A stretch of 35,342 nucleotides of DNA from Clostridia bacterium (lineage in GTDB: Bacteria; Bacillota; Clostridia; Oscillospirales; CAG-272): the NCBI GenBank assembly GCA_017936565.1, contig JAGBFG010000023.1, forward strand, positions 1 through 35,342. Reading direction: 5' to 3'. Of the stretch, positions 8,164 to 21,812 are shown piece by piece. Position numbers and translations under genes: made by a program. Position 1 is the first letter of the stretch; each line of letters begins with the position of its first letter. The notes under the pieces were generated by a model. It had not been told where the DNA came from, did not search any database, and worked only from the letters and a program-made list of their open reading frames with translations.

Positions 8164-8259
8164 AAATAGCAGCTGCCCTTGGGCAAATGCGGGGAAAGCG
8201 CGGTGCAATTCCGTCACAACAGTCATTACGGTAAAAGTCCGAATGCCTGCCTGCTATTT
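8164..8259 (+). ncRNA. Cobalamin riboswitch aptamer
   Basis: The core elements of the cobalamin riboswitch family (Rfam RF00174) appear in order: closing helix AAATAGCAG (8164-8172) with CTGCTATTT (8251-8259), 'GGGGAAAGCGCGGTGCAATTCC', the short CACAACAGTCAT segment, and the hallmark AAGTCCGAATGCCTGCC at 8235-8251. It is compact. GGGCA at 8181-8185 and again at 8277-8281 can each pair with TGCCC at 8174-8178, so ligand binding may choose between them. Two hairpins with T runs follow before the lipoprotein gene, consistent with transcriptional attenuation. It predicts repression of the downstream pair by a cobalamin. Confidence 0.88.
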
Positions 8260-12167: not shown

Positions 12168-13685
12168 TTATTTCTCAAATTGGATAAAGTCGCTTGACGT
12201 ATACAAATACCCCTTTTCAAAGCCATCGTAATTGGGGGTTGTTTCCTTGACGGCTCTTACCTCCTCGGAATATCCCCGAACGGAGATATAGTAGCAAGCG
12301 GCGCTCGTTGGTACGCTGACCGTCAAGACACCCGCATCGTCAAAGGACAAGGGCATAGACTTAAAATCGGGGCCCGTTGCGAAGGAAGAATACGGCTCAA
12401 TGGGCGCGGTGCGGTAATACAGGGTGGCGGTGACGTTTGTCATTCCATCGGGAATTTTTAAGCCGACTCTGTACTCGTGCCCGTCCTTTTCGGTGATTTG
12501 CCTGTCAAATGTTATCAAGGTATCGCCCTTTTCCAATATTTTCTTGCCAAAACAGTAAATTTCGGGAATGGACGCGCCCGCCGATTGGCTGTGCGTTAAG
12601 CCGGGCTTAATCAGGATATACCCGGTTTTCAGGTCACGGTAGGTGGCGGAAAGAACGTCAACCGAAGCGAAGCCGTCCTTCTCGCTGGAAATAAGCATAG
12701 TGGGAACGGTGGAAGCGGCAAAGCGCGCCTCGTCCTGCCAGAGAGATGCGGCGAAGGCGTTGGTGTTAAGACCGCCAACGGACGAGCCAAGGCTTTCTGC
12801 CATATGGAAGGATATATAAATGGGAACGCAGAAGGCAAAGCGCTCATCATAGCAAATGGCGGTTGAGGTCAAAAGTCCGCCCCAGGAAATACCCGTCAGA
12901 CCGACCTCTTCTGCCACAACGCCTTCCGTTGCGCGCAAAACCGTGTTGGCTATGGAAATATCGCAAAGGGCGTTATAAATCCATTGCCCTTCAAGCGCGC
13001 CCTCTACATTCGCGAAGCTGTCCTTGCCCATATGCCCCGCTACGTCCTTGACGTATGCTGCTTCAAGCTCGTTGTAGGCGCTTCCCGTTGTGCCGCCTGT
13101 GGTGTTCACACAGCCCTCGGTATCAATGGCAATGGCGGCAAAGCCGTGCTTGATTGCCTCTAAAACGTAGGTAGCGTATGCGTGCCCCAAGCCGCCGTGT
13201 ACGCAAACAATGCCGGGAACGGAGCCCTCGCCCACAGGCTTGCCGATATAGGCGAAGGTGCGTAAGATTCCCATATCCTTCAATTCCTCATCCTCATAAT
13301 ACGAGGGGTCAAAGGTCGTGGGCGCATAAAGAAACACTGCCGAGATGCCCGCTTTGTCGGGGTCCTCGCTGTCCTTATACGGTTGAAGCTCAGGAAGATA
13401 CTCTACCCAGATAGCCGCCGCGCCCCCGGGCCGTGGCGCATCTTTTCCGCAAACCAAGACAGGCAGGTCAAGACTGTTTATTTTCTGCTGTGTCATTTCC
13501 TGCAAGCAGGCAATATACCGTTTCATATTAAAAGCGTTCTCCTTAAAATGATGCATTGGCATTTCGCGCTTTCCGCTTTCATAAAGCTGATGCTGCTGTC
13601 TGGTGATACCTAAAACCAACGCTATATCCTCTTGCTTTTTATCCAAGTCTTCTCTGATGTCCTTCAATCTTTGATATACGTACAT
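12168..13685 (-). CDS. Xre HTH-alpha/beta hydrolase (esterase) fusion
   Basis: A 505-aa open frame. Residues 1-47 are most of an Xre domain (LKDIREDLDKKQEDIALVLG, then ITRQQHQLYESGKREMPMHH), cut off before the usual last helix. From residue 54 follows an acetyl-xylan-esterase/dienelactone-type alpha/beta hydrolase: 'PGIVCVHGGLGHAYATYV' (oxyanion region), GISWGG nucleophile elbow, 'LISSEKDGF' (acid) and THSQSA (His). A roughly 110-residue beta-rich C-terminal extension ends it. At residue 54 the ATG (13526) is preceded by AAGGAG (13539-13544) 12 bases away, so the hydrolase probably once started there and may still do so. The upstream ATG at 13685 lacks a good ribosome site. There is no signal peptide; the enzyme is cytoplasmic. 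Confidence 0.82.
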   Translation of the reverse strand: MYVYQRLKDIREDLDKKQEDIALVLGITRQQHQLYESGKREMPMHHFKENAFNMKRYIACLQEMTQQKINSLDLPVLVCGKDAPRPGGAAAIWVEYLPELQPYKDSEDPDKAGISAVFLYAPTTFDPSYYEDEELKDMGILRTFAYIGKPVGEGSVPGIVCVHGGLGHAYATYVLEAIKHGFAAIAIDTEGCVNTTGGTTGSAYNELEAAYVKDVAGHMGKDSFANVEGALEGQWIYNALCDISIANTVLRATEGVVAEEVGLTGISWGGLLTSTAICYDERFAFCVPIYISFHMAESLGSSVGGLNTNAFAASLWQDEARFAASTVPTMLISSEKDGFASVDVLSATYRDLKTGYILIKPGLTHSQSAGASIPEIYCFGKKILEKGDTLITFDRQITEKDGHEYRVGLKIPDGMTNVTATLYYRTAPIEPYSSFATGPDFKSMPLSFDDAGVLTVSVPTSAACYYISVRGYSEEVRAVKETTPNYDGFEKGYLYTSSDFIQFEK

Positions 13686-15793: not shown

Positions 15794-15830
15794 GAAAAAA
15801 AGAAGCGTGAAGAATACCATCGTCACGCTT
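15794..15830 (-). terminator. Terminator of the tRNA-like RNA
   Basis: On the minus strand AAGCGTGA, 12-nt loop, TCACGCTT, then CTTTTTTTCC. It lies between the RNA and the TerD-domain gene, so that gene would be reached only by readthrough or by an unseen promoter. It can also act weakly on the plus strand. Confidence 0.75.
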
Positions 15831-15840
15831 TTTTGATTTT

Positions 15841-15974
15841 GTGCGAAGAAGTAAATCGTCGGATTATTCATGCCGCCGCTCTACCCCTGAGCCACCACAC
15901 CCTTTGCACAAAGCAAAGAGCGGGATGGGATTTGAACCCATGACCTGCGGCTTATCACTGAGAAGTAAACCCGA
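15841..15974 (-). ncRNA. YrlA-class Y RNA-like, circularly permuted tRNA mimic
   Basis: Read on the minus strand, a tRNA 3' half comes first: anticodon-stem strand GCCGC (15951-15947), 5-nt variable loop AGGTC, T arm ATGGG-TTCAAAT-CCCAT (15941-15925), acceptor strand CCCGCTC. A TTTGT loop then joins it to a 5' half: acceptor strand and D arm GCTC-AGGGGTA-GAGC (15892-15878), then GCGGC (15876-15872), which pairs perfectly with GCCGC. The acceptor helix 15924-15913 with 15907-15896 has 11 pairs of 12. The anticodon loop is open and leads to flanking helix TCGGGTT (15974-15968) with AATCCGA (15865-15859) around an asymmetric loop. This order is that of YrlA Y RNAs that tether Ro60-type proteins. 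The transcript probably runs from about 16083 to 15794. Confidence 0.82.
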
Positions 15975-16089
15975 ATAGCCTTCCCTATCGGCAAAGCCGA
16001 CAATCCGCCGCCTGCCGCGCCGCTTTCCCGAAAGAAAACCAAGGACAGACACCGAACGCACAGGAAACCCGAAGGTCACCCATACACTC

Positions 16090-16117
16090 ATTGTAGCATA
16101 AAATTTCAAAAATGCAA
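16090..16117 (-). promoter_or_regulatory. Promoter of the tRNA-like RNA
   Basis: Minus strand TTGCAT (16117-16112), 16 bp, TACAAT (16095-16090). Start expected near 16083. The roughly 110-nt leader before the core contains TGTCGGC-TTT-GCCGATA (7 bp with a G-U pair), and a TGTGCG that can pair with CGCACA just 3' of the core. Confidence 0.65.
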
Positions 16118-19107: not shown

Positions 19108-19154
19108 GCGCTACAACATAATTTCAATCGCCATTTATGGCAGGGGAGATACTT

Positions 19155-20747
19155 ATGGAACACAACGAAGCCGCAAAATTCGAAAAAATCACCATTGAGT
19201 CCTACAATGGAACCGAGCCCTTCCTCTTTGTCAGCTATTCTCACAAAGACTCCAAAGAGGTTTCTCGGATACTGGAATACATAGACAAGGAAAAATTCCG
19301 TATGTGGTATGACGATACCATGGAAATCGGAGAGGACTTCCGCGAGGAGCTGCGCTCTAAAATCGAGTCCTGCTGTGCGGTACTTCTTTTCCTGTCGAAA
19401 AGCTCCTTGAACTCCAAATACTGCGGTATGGAGATTATCACTGCCTTTAAGTACAACAAGCGCATCTATCCCTTCTATCTGGAAGAGAACGTGGAAATTC
19501 CCGCCGCCTTGAAAATGATTTTGGAGAACTTGCAGCACGTGACGGGAACTGCCGTTGCCGCCAACAAGAAATACCTGCAAAAGCTCGTTTCCTCTCTTCC
19601 CATTGAGGCGATGAAGGCGTTGCATATGGAAGGGGACGTTCTGGTAAAATGCAAGGACGGAAGCCCTGAAATCCGCATTCCCAAGGACGTGGTTGCCATT
19701 GGCAACTCCGCCTTTAAGAACTGCGAGAAGTTAGAGCGTCTTATCATTGGCGAAAACCTCAAATCCTTGGGAAGCGAGTCCTTCCGCGGCTCCAAGCGCT
19801 TGGAGCGTCTTGACCTGCCCGACACCGTCAAGAAGATAGGCGACAGCGCCTTTCGTGACTGTATTGGTTTGACCGAGGTCACTATTACCAACGACGATAT
19901 TGAGATAGGCGAGCGCGCCTTTGAAAACTGCGCCGAGCTTTCCTCTGTCTCCCTGCCGTCCGGTATGGCGGAGATTTACGGGGGCGTGTTTAACAGCTGT
20001 AAGTCCTTAGAGGATATTAAGCTGCCCTCGGGCTTGACCATTATCGGCGAAAGCTCGCTGGCGGACTGCGTCAAGTTAAAGAGGATTGACGTTCCCTTTG
20101 GCGTTACCAAGATTGACGATATGGCGTTTAACGGTTGTATAGGTTTGGAAAGAATCAACCTGCCCGCCACCGTCACCAAAATCGGTAAGAACGTATTTAA
20201 GGATTGCGTCTCCCTGCAAAACATCACCATTCCCGCGTCCGTTTCCGCTATTGGCACGAGCCCCTTCCGCGGCTGTACGGGATTGCGCTCCATTTCCGTT
20301 GACCCCAAAAGCCGTTACTACAAGTCTGTCAACGACATTCTGTTTAATAAAAACAAGTCCGTGCTTATCTGCTATCCCGCCGCTTGCAACAGCAAGGAAT
20401 TCACCGTTCCCGACTCGGTGACCGTGATTAGCGATTGGGCATTCTGCGACTGCTATTTCTTGGAAAAAATCATCATTCCCGACTCCGTTTCCGAAATCGG
20501 CGAGGGCGCCTTCTACCGCTGCGAGAGCCTGCGGTCCGTTGAGCTGCCTGACTCCGTGACGAAAATTGACGACACCGCCTTCCGCGGTTGCACGCGCTTG
20601 GAGAAGCTCGTCGTTCCCGACTCTGTCAAGGACTTCGGCTGGGGCGTTTTGAACGGCTGCGAGAACGTGACCGTTATTTGTAACGACCATTCCGCCGCTG
20701 CCGCTTATTGCGAAAGAAAGAACATTAAACATTGCGAATCTCTTTGA
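19155..20747 (+). CDS. TIR domain-BspA-type leucine-rich repeat protein
   Basis: A 530-aa protein. An N-terminal TIR domain (about 20-150) shows FLFVSYSHKD (box 1), 'WYDDTMEIGEDFREELRSKI' (box 2) and 'FLSKSSLNSKYCGMEI', with Glu93 at the position of the NADase catalytic Glu. From about 165 to 515 there are roughly a dozen LRR_5/BspA repeats of the form AFxxCxxLxxIxLPxxVxxIG. There is no signal peptide, no TM and no anchor, so the LRR is cytoplasmic, unlike adhesin-type BspA proteins. The design, a sensor LRR plus a TIR effector, is that of innate immune receptors, without an NTPase between. AGGGGAG lies six bases before the ATG at 19155. It probably shares a transcript with the upstream transporter. 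Confidence 0.92.
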   Translation: MEHNEAAKFEKITIESYNGTEPFLFVSYSHKDSKEVSRILEYIDKEKFRMWYDDTMEIGEDFREELRSKIESCCAVLLFLSKSSLNSKYCGMEIITAFKYNKRIYPFYLEENVEIPAALKMILENLQHVTGTAVAANKKYLQKLVSSLPIEAMKALHMEGDVLVKCKDGSPEIRIPKDVVAIGNSAFKNCEKLERLIIGENLKSLGSESFRGSKRLERLDLPDTVKKIGDSAFRDCIGLTEVTITNDDIEIGERAFENCAELSSVSLPSGMAEIYGGVFNSCKSLEDIKLPSGLTIIGESSLADCVKLKRIDVPFGVTKIDDMAFNGCIGLERINLPATVTKIGKNVFKDCVSLQNITIPASVSAIGTSPFRGCTGLRSISVDPKSRYYKSVNDILFNKNKSVLICYPAACNSKEFTVPDSVTVISDWAFCDCYFLEKIIIPDSVSEIGEGAFYRCESLRSVELPDSVTKIDDTAFRGCTRLEKLVVPDSVKDFGWGVLNGCENVTVICNDHSAAAAYCERKNIKHCESL

Positions 20748-20915: not shown

Positions 20916-21812
20916 ATGGCAAATGCACTTTCGGGGCTTTTCCTGCTTCACAAGGAAAAGGGAATGTCCTCTCAAACGGCTGTCAACCGTGTCAAGCACC
21001 TCTTCGGCGCAGAAAAGGCAGGGCACACCGGCACGCTCGACCCTATGGCAGAGGGCGTTTTGCCCGTTCTTATCGGGCGCGCCGTCAAGGCAAGCGAGTT
21101 TCTGCTCACGGCGGACAAGCACTATTTAGCACATCTTCGCCTCGGTCAGACCAGCGATACCGAAGACGCAACGGGAACCATTTTGACACAAACGGAGCTT
21201 TTGCCCCAAGAGGAAGAGGTCTTTGCAGTCTTGCCGCGCTTTACAGGCAAGCTTTTGCAAACGCCCCCTATGTACAGCGCCTTAAAGATAGGCGGACAAA
21301 AGCTGTGCGACTTGGCAAGAAAGGGGCAGGAAATTGAGCGGCAAGCGCGGGAAATCACCGTTTTTTCGCTATCAGCAGAAAGGCTTTCGCCCTCGGAATA
21401 CGCTCTTTCCGTCCATTGCTCCAAGGGAACGTATATCAGAACCCTGTGCGCCGATATCGGCAAGGCGCTTGGCTGTGGGGGGCTGATGAGCCGATTGGTC
21501 AGAACAAAGGCGTCGGGCTTTTCGTTAGAGCAGGCGCAAACGCTTGCGCAGCTGGAAGAAACCCCCGCTTCTCTTCGTCCCTCTCTGCTTTTGCCCACGG
21601 AGCGCATCTTTGCTTCCTGCGCCAAGGTAACCCTTCCGCCCTTTTTTGCGCGTCTTGCAAGAGCGGGGCAGCCCATTTACCAAAAGAAGATAAACACCCA
21701 TTTTCCTCTTGACACCTTGGTTTCCTTTTACGACAACGAGGGCTTTTTCGCCGTTGCCAGAGCCGAGGAAAAGGAAGAGGACGTTGTCCTCAAACCCCTT
21801 CGCCAATTCTGA
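20916..21812 (+). CDS. truB: tRNA pseudouridine-55 synthase
   Basis: A 298-aa enzyme that isomerises U55 in the T loop of tRNAs. The catalytic motif AGHTGTLDPMAEGVLPV contains the nucleophilic Asp. 'YLAHLRLGQTSDTEDATG', PPMYSALKIGG and 'CSKGTYIRTLCADIG' are the other TruB blocks. Length is usual. The ribosome site is weak: GAGGG about 11 bases before the ATG, with a better AAGGAG further upstream not matched to a start. In many Bacillota truB follows rbfA and precedes ribF; here it sits between TIR-LRR and addA, so the usual cluster is broken. T loops of YrlA RNAs are also TruB targets, which is relevant to the RNA at 15.9 kb. Confidence 0.96.
   Translation: MANALSGLFLLHKEKGMSSQTAVNRVKHLFGAEKAGHTGTLDPMAEGVLPVLIGRAVKASEFLLTADKHYLAHLRLGQTSDTEDATGTILTQTELLPQEEEVFAVLPRFTGKLLQTPPMYSALKIGGQKLCDLARKGQEIERQAREITVFSLSAERLSPSEYALSVHCSKGTYIRTLCADIGKALGCGGLMSRLVRTKASGFSLEQAQTLAQLEETPASLRPSLLLPTERIFASCAKVTLPPFFARLARAGQPIYQKKINTHFPLDTLVSFYDNEGFFAVARAEEKEEDVVLKPLRQF

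Follow-up and report, generated by a model that had tools for sequence, protein, structure and literature searches.

To our knowledge, the bacterial Y RNAs described so far are paired with Ro60 orthologs. On a Y RNA, Ro60 binds to the lower stem; in the case of YrlA the bound Ro60 is tethered to PNPase. Burroughs and Aravind (2016) reportedly described RNA repair systems in which a tRNA-like RNA accompanies another type of scaffold, a Band-7/SPFH protein. According to passages of PMC8394870, YrlA has a stem formed by both ends and a permuted tRNA-like domain with D, T and acceptor arms. In Salmonella, passages of PMC7790460 place rsr and the Y RNA genes within the rtcBA RNA repair operon. The locus described here lies in the window, i.e. 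the whole stretch of 35,342 nucleotides that was analysed. It carries the same kind of permuted tRNA module next to a gene for a different protein, termed P0001. An initial annotation had assigned the RNA, as probable, to the YrlA class and, by implication, to a Ro60-type partner. We conclude that the element is a variant Y RNA which does not belong to YrlA.

The RNA element and its fold

The Y-RNA-like element as a whole occupies 15845..15987 of the minus strand. Read 5' to 3' it starts with GGGAAG-GCTA, TTCGGGTT and an unpaired TACTTC, continues through a head composed of GCCGC, AGGTC, a T arm, an acceptor hairpin, a D arm and GCGGC, and ends with AATCCGAC, GA, TTTA and CTTC. In the basal module the 5' strand (15976..15983) comprises GAAG (15980-15983), which pairs with CTTC (15848-15851), and the conserved GCTA, which is part of the AGCTA of the family consensus. 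The adjoining 8-bp stem, for which covariation was found within the family, is formed by TTCGGGTT (15968..15975) and AATCCGAC (15858-15865) with a single mismatch, the outermost T-C. The conserved unpaired TACTTC (15962..15967) follows 3' of the first stem strand. The head opens with the 3' strand of the anticodon stem, GCCGC (15947..15951), which pairs with the 5' strand GCGGC (15872..15876), and with the variable loop AGGTC (15942..15946). The T arm ATGGG-TTCAAAT-CCCAT with the loop TTCAAAT (15925..15941) and the D arm GCTC-AGGGGTA-GAGC with GG in its loop (15878..15892) were assigned by a covariance model, R3, and by sequence. Between them is an acceptor-like hairpin with the 5-nt loop TTTGT (15895..15924) which is longer than that of other members and contains mismatches. 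The 3' strand (15848..15865), assigned by R3, consists of AATCCGAC, a GA bulge, TTTA at the place where most members have TATC, and CTTC. All tRNA-like pieces which the initial annotation had described in permuted order on the minus strand are present at 15872-15951, and the further helix which it had seen leading outward corresponds to the 8-bp stem followed by GAAG/CTTC.

R3 was built from 23 tRNA-headed elements of homologous loci, none of them from the genome of the window (G000) or from the genomes G028, G033 and G050. In the window the element was its sole match at E<=5 (70.6 bits, E=6.2e-13, model positions 1-132 of 132). This bears out, by a custom model of the kind that had been suggested, the claim that the RNA is of the Y-RNA type and contains a tRNA module in circular permutation. 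The model R1 missed the window copy (10.3 bits, E=1.5). In 27 tRNA-headed elements including that of the window, 89.7% of the cells pair, a share which favours the structures because these were written by hand from the same sequences. Changes on both sides were seen in 29 of 39 pairs, and the covariation score was 0.562 compared with 0.084-0.129 for slid structures. When the elements of G000, G028 and G033 were omitted, the remaining 23 gave 90.6% paired cells, again 29 of 39 pairs and a score of 0.592 versus 0.091-0.133. The anticodon stem was the weakest helix (74-77% of cells paired). Its complementary strands GCCGC and GCGGC, already pointed out earlier, changed on both sides in 5/5 pairs, those of the acceptor stem in 6/7, and both figures were unaffected by removal of the window copy; a lack of covariation in these two stems had been named as grounds for refuting the assignment. 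The tRNA-headed alignment A7 contained 23 of 26 long elements and left out L073, L088 and L092:5424-5559, the latter two with heads in canonical order.

Folding was less informative. When the element was folded alone, the T arm and the acceptor hairpin were retained and the remainder paired differently (z=-2.0; 5/200 shuffles as good). For a 171-nt piece z was -1.1 (28/200 shuffles as good), and for a region of 244 nt -2.8 (1/200). The predicted full structure thus rests on comparison, not on energy. The span originally given, 15841..16083, holds for 15845-15987; for 15988-16083 no homology support was found in the comparison with relatives. Similarly, of a promoter and a terminator said to bracket the RNA, the latter corresponds to a terminator-like hairpin with a T run at 15795..15830 (minus strand), predicted by folding at -12.7 kcal/mol with 0/200 shuffles equally stable. 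A consensus scan, the loop limit of which was 8 nt, reported no terminator for the element, and as it found no minus-strand promoter either, the claimed promoter was not confirmed. TACAAT at 16090-16095 (minus strand), with a weak -35 region, is only a possible promoter of the element.

Could the element be a tRNA gene or a tmRNA in permuted form that serves translation? The order of the halves does resemble that of permuted tRNA genes, and a weak tmRNA match was observed (13.7 bits). The tmRNA reading was discounted in view of the complete D stem. Furthermore, an anticodon loop and a CCA end are absent and the strands of the anticodon stem continue into the basal stem, so that we regard a role in translation as extremely improbable. 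Rfam including RF00005 yielded no match above threshold at the element. Its best Rfam match was YrlA (RF02553) with 23.6 bits (E=0.021 in a 1-kb search), below the gathering score of 69 and confined to the tRNA module (model positions 23-85 of 114). The check by the Rfam YrlA model, which had been recommended for the YrlA assignment, therefore turned out negative. As in YrlA, the element combines D, T and acceptor arms in a permuted tRNA-like module, and its 5' and 3' ends form a basal stem. The differences are another sequence module in the basal stem, a setting in which no Ro60 was found, and a family that also includes plain and canonical-order heads.

Association with the P0001 gene

P0001 (13725..15767, minus strand; 680 aa) is the proposed protein partner; its C-terminal part appears TerD-like in profile comparison. 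The gene is located directly downstream of the RNA, and the terminator-like hairpin lies between the two. Among 59 genomes P0001 homologs were present in four, G000, G028, G033 and G050. The five best R3 matches, 89.4 and 88.2 bits in G033, 89.4 in G028, 70.6 in G000 and 46.9 in G050, fell exactly in these four genomes. Overall, 28/59 genomes had an R3 match at E<=0.01, with the sixth-best score at 41.5 bits. With the seed genome excluded, the chance of picking the right 3 of 58 genomes is 1 in 30,856, a figure which uses a cut set post hoc between 46.9 and 41.5 bits and ignores kinship, as three of the four P0001 genomes belong to one genus. Matches to the DNA of G037 were dropped; they lie inside long open frames.

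Four of the weaker R3 places (in G009, G032, G038 and a second site in G000) were checked and are tandem tRNA genes. This lends some colour to the idea that the element is itself a remnant of two tandem tRNA genes, the 3' half of one and the 5' half of the next. However, ARAGORN found no tRNA in the window, the basal stem covaries and is present in relatives, and the same stem occurs without a tRNA part in 80 of 107 related elements (loops up to 50 nt; see below), which leaves this origin next to no credibility. Within the genus the window copy is diverged (70.6 bits compared with 88-89 for G033 and G028). G033 has two similar elements, both of which precede a gene 42% identical to P0001, and G028 has one with a tRNA head. 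In G028 the RNA and the protein (L118) are on separate contigs; the two were compared for a possible join, and their LRR stretches are 93% identical over 703 bases. In G050 the same basal module with a plain hairpin in place of the tRNA lies directly upstream of the P0001 homolog.

The best 80 of the 113 loci with P0001 relatives found in a genome collection came from Lachnospiraceae, Oscillospiraceae, Coriobacteriaceae, Atopobiaceae, Eggerthellaceae and others. They were searched for GCTR-N6-YTTAYTYC with a matching 3' strand. In 842,844 bases 107 elements were located on the strand of the gene and none on the opposite strand; five rounds of shuffled loci gave a total of 4 elements on both strands. 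At least one element was present in 66/80 loci, and in 63/80 within 1 kb upstream on the strand of the gene. Of the 14 loci without an element, there are five in which the upstream sequence present is 51 nt or less (L090, L100, L110, L123, L124). The other nine are true misses in which neither the finder nor R3 detected anything (L059, L072, L075, L076, L078, L083, L118, L130, L137). Another conserved neighbour was not apparent, the commonest neighbour families being present in only 8/80 loci. Out of 391 genomes from the class, 2 were matched by the P0001 profile and 1 by R1; this single match reports on specificity only because it is identical to a training element from L087. Among the literature matches listed no paper dealt with a pairing of this RNA with P0001; Chen 2014, Sim 2020 and Burroughs and Aravind 2016 may mention the family.

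The family consensus reads AGCTA-[8 bp]-TACTTC ... RA-TATC, with an internal loop of AGCTA opposite RATATC. Loop lengths of the 107 elements were 9-50 nt in 80, 77-98 nt in 26 and 146 nt in one. Of the 27 long heads 25 are permuted and 2 have the canonical order of arms, and ARAGORN independently called tRNAs inside heads of L088 and L092. For plain-headed elements of four loci no Rfam family was reported at E<=0.5. For the 60 plain-headed elements, all those whose loop does not exceed 26 nt, the share of pairing cells is 88.2%, and the covariation score was 0.659 versus 0.074-0.168 for slid structures. Both-side changes occurred in 14/18 pairs (shuffles: mean 12.5, with 15/500 reaching 14) and in 275 cells compared with 98 in shuffles. 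The 53 of these 60 that were chosen first, alignment A4, gave 91.0% and 0.690; seven had been dropped on account of weak tails, overlaps or near-duplication. L080 with its loop of 146 nt and 20 elements with loops of 27-50 nt are outside every covariation alignment. In L062, L069, L079, L098 and others an element with RTT before TACTTC comes first and is followed by one of a second, mostly plain-headed class with GCT before TACTTC.

The consistent orientation on the strand of the gene and the mostly close upstream position would also fit a cis-acting leader, i.e. a riboswitch- or T-box-like regulator of the P0001 mRNA instead of a free RNA. Several observations are at odds with this. Boxes with at most one mismatch to TATAAT begin 14-32 nt upstream of GCTA in 51/107 elements, the commonest distances being 20 and 22 nt (13 and 8 versus about 0.4 expected at each), and TTTTT occurs within 25 nt after the element in 31/107 as against 77/2140 random places (3.6%). 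Both suggest separate transcripts. In addition, elements are arranged in arrays, such as the one in L092 with five members by the finder and eight by eye; two elements are positioned some 2.1 kb within or past the start of the gene, and that of G028 is on another contig. An unsystematic look revealed no alternative structure over the start codon. A leader is thus an unlikely reading, and we prefer that of a free RNA. In L092 (4494-5930) permuted and canonical-order tRNA heads alternate along the approximately eight elements.

Viral sequences gave a corresponding picture. Nine loci in IMG/VR encode P0001 homologs, two of which (L192 and L193) are identical and two (L186 and L188) nearly so. In this test set, which was outside the models, R1 identified 28 elements in 9/9 loci, all on the strand of the gene and at most about 520 nt upstream. 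With R3, L186 and L188 were seen to carry permuted heads (78.0 bits); three further matches (in L187, L186 and L188) were weak and confined to the tRNA part. In the Rhodococcus phage Weasels2 (L183, 1855-4228) the gene for a more distant P0001 relative is followed, about 165 nt downstream, by an R3 match of 65.4 bits; a tRNA array is located upstream. This was the only full-length R3 match in ten loci of distant relatives. In the phage loci L161 and L163 R3 covered the tRNA part only (25.1 and 26.7 bits), and searches with R3 and Rfam, and with R1 for L161-L166, gave no RNA next to the relatives in Streptomyces, Vibrio, Variovorax and Niallia.

Other features of the window are an AdoCbl-II (B12) riboswitch at 8181-8256 (plus strand; 43.3 bits, gathering score 36.5) and, at 19137-20747 (plus strand), a protein that combines a TIR_2 domain with BspA-type leucine-rich repeats. 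Adjoining P0001 a 505-aa protein is encoded at 12168-13685 (minus strand); it has a weak helix-turn-helix match at its N-terminal start, and domain scans reported no further family. A TruB pseudouridine synthase is encoded at 20916-21812 (plus strand), about 5 kb from the RNA, and is probably a housekeeping enzyme. TruB modifies the T loop of YrlA, as passages of PMC8394870 have it.

P0001 and the Ro60 systems

Pfam scans of P0001 and 40 homologs gave no meaningful family, in particular no TROVE and no vWA domain, nor did they indicate a Band-7/SPFH domain. The likeness to the Band-7/SPFH systems is that of a non-Ro scaffold with a tRNA-like RNA. Against PDB, P0001 had four matches, all with E>0.1, and the P0001 profile had none. 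Residues 289-609 matched the NCBIfam family MXAN_6230/SCO0854 (NF041916; E=1.7e-27) with 96 bits at a cutoff of 600, and a RING part is not listed for P0001. By these scores P0001 is a relative, not a member, of that family. tblastn located relatives in 23 plasmid records (Streptomyces, Vibrio, Variovorax, Mycolicibacterium, Embleya, Niallia) and also in 11 phage records.

For profile comparisons an alignment of 51 rows was used (41 close and 10 distant relatives). With hhalign its C-terminal part aligned to TerD (PF02342) with a probability of 94.1% (P=1.3e-7; reversed control P=0.22), a likeness that no Pfam hit had indicated; by profile comparison the C-terminus of P0001 appears TerD-like. 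D470, D472, D505, E515 and D518 in this part are present in 51/51 rows, as is R321; H267 is present in 50/51. Compared with a 12-row Ro alignment the 51 rows reached 39.5% (P=3.1e-4), with LLRNLN-like motifs opposite each other. The close relatives alone gave 2.9% (P=0.016), the distant ones alone 0.6% (P=0.089), and reversed profiles had P values of 0.16 and 0.31. A weak similarity of the middle part of P0001 to Ro is thereby suggested. P0001 would share with Ro60/Rsr (TROVE, PF05731) the proposed role and this weak similarity, and it differs in having no Pfam TROVE match and a TerD-like C-terminus where Ro60 has the vWA domain.

The plasmid loci provided some further observations. On a Variovorax plasmid a RING-containing P0001 relative is three small genes away from rtcR, a regulator gene which adjoins TROVE in Rhizobium and Pseudomonas plasmids. 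MXAN_6230/SCO0854-family genes of Streptomyces plasmids (L164, L165, L180) lie within 5 kb of VWA genes, in L164 also within 5 kb of an RNB ribonuclease gene. On a Vibrio plasmid (L166, 3315-9678) some 3 kb separate the gene of a P0001-related 'TerD family protein' from one of the RNA ligase family.

The Ro60-type partner implied by the initial annotation received no support: TROVE was found neither in the genome of the window, which is 85% complete, nor in any of the 59 genomes, 31 of which have a completeness of 90% or more and a contamination of 5% or less. In these searches the same one of 14 control genomes was positive each time, and TROVE was detected in 6/249 genomes drawn from the phylum. 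In the 59 genomes the Rfam YrlA model reached at best 47.6 bits in relatives and exceeded the cutoff of 69 in none. As true Ro-linked RNAs of Bacillota likewise stay below this cutoff (39.9 bits), the score test is weak on its own; on the score together with the failure to find TROVE, we reject YrlA membership. An ordinary YrlA whose Ro60 gene resides in the missing part of the genome would account for the shared permuted module and for YrlA being the best Rfam match. We consider it very unlikely given that TROVE was found in 0/59 relatives, that the RNA tracks P0001 and that the YrlA score is 23.6 instead of 69 bits.

A probable relationship to Ro-linked RNAs is indicated elsewhere. In three loci from Bacillota, R3 matched over its full length upstream of the TROVE gene: L139 (78.6 bits), L140 (72.7) and L142 (64.0). 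ARAGORN found no tRNA in these matches. Across 14 TROVE loci R3 reached at least 64 bits in 3, 41.9-49.4 in 2 and at most 32.4 in 4, and it had no match in 5. A YrlA of Rhizobium (L171) scored 49.4 bits with R3 and 56.1 with Rfam. A match in L141 was discarded; it overlaps two tRNA genes. Because the tandem tRNA genes that were checked score 35-42 bits, much of the excess in L139, L140 and L142 probably derives from the basal part. These Bacillota RNAs have the permuted head and UUACUUC directly after the 5' stem strand in common with the P0001-linked elements; they are unlike them in the internal loop and the 3' strand, and their partner is a TROVE-vWA protein. The P0001-linked and TROVE-linked Y RNAs are probably related, the partner proteins at best distantly so.

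A proposed RNP with an exchangeable head

We consider it likely that the RNA and P0001 form a Y-RNA-like RNP, with P0001 in the position of Ro60 and with the tRNA mimic as an exchangeable head. The replacement of Ro60 by P0001 is suggested by genetic linkage, from which we infer binding and function. P0001 would dock on the conserved RNA stem as Ro60 does on the lower stem of Y RNAs, and the head would recruit or lure a protein that reads the tRNA elbow. Candidates are exonucleases, PNPase among them, and enzymes of tRNA modification, tRNA cleavage or RNA repair. The permuted head retains D and T arms and has neither a free 3' end nor an anticodon loop. The elbow is the common part because the canonical-order heads share it with the permuted ones. 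As the heads have the elbow in common, but neither a free anticodon loop nor a free acceptor end, it is the elbow that the RNP would offer as a bait or an adaptor. In this way it could gate or redirect RNA processing under stress or phage attack, and the TerD-like domain, in the position of vWA, may sense a metal or a ligand.

With less assurance, though still inclined towards it, we extend this proposal to a second, Ro60-independent lineage of Y RNPs in Clostridia, Coriobacteriia and the viruses of these bacteria. In this lineage the stem would dock a TerD-fused protein, the head would be exchangeable between a plain loop and a permuted or canonical tRNA, and the elbow would act as bait or adaptor, possibly in a phage-host contest of tRNA cleavage and repair.

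The same tRNA mimicry in the company of another protein would separate those traits that belong to the RNA itself from those of Ro60. The head is modular, with 25 permuted and 2 canonical forms among 27 long ones and loops of at most 50 nt in 80 of 107 elements, and tRNA mimicry of this kind is extended to gut Clostridia and to viral contigs. Finally, the RNA and P0001 constitute a concrete, testable pair, which may provide a possible role for a TerD-containing family so far named by numbers.
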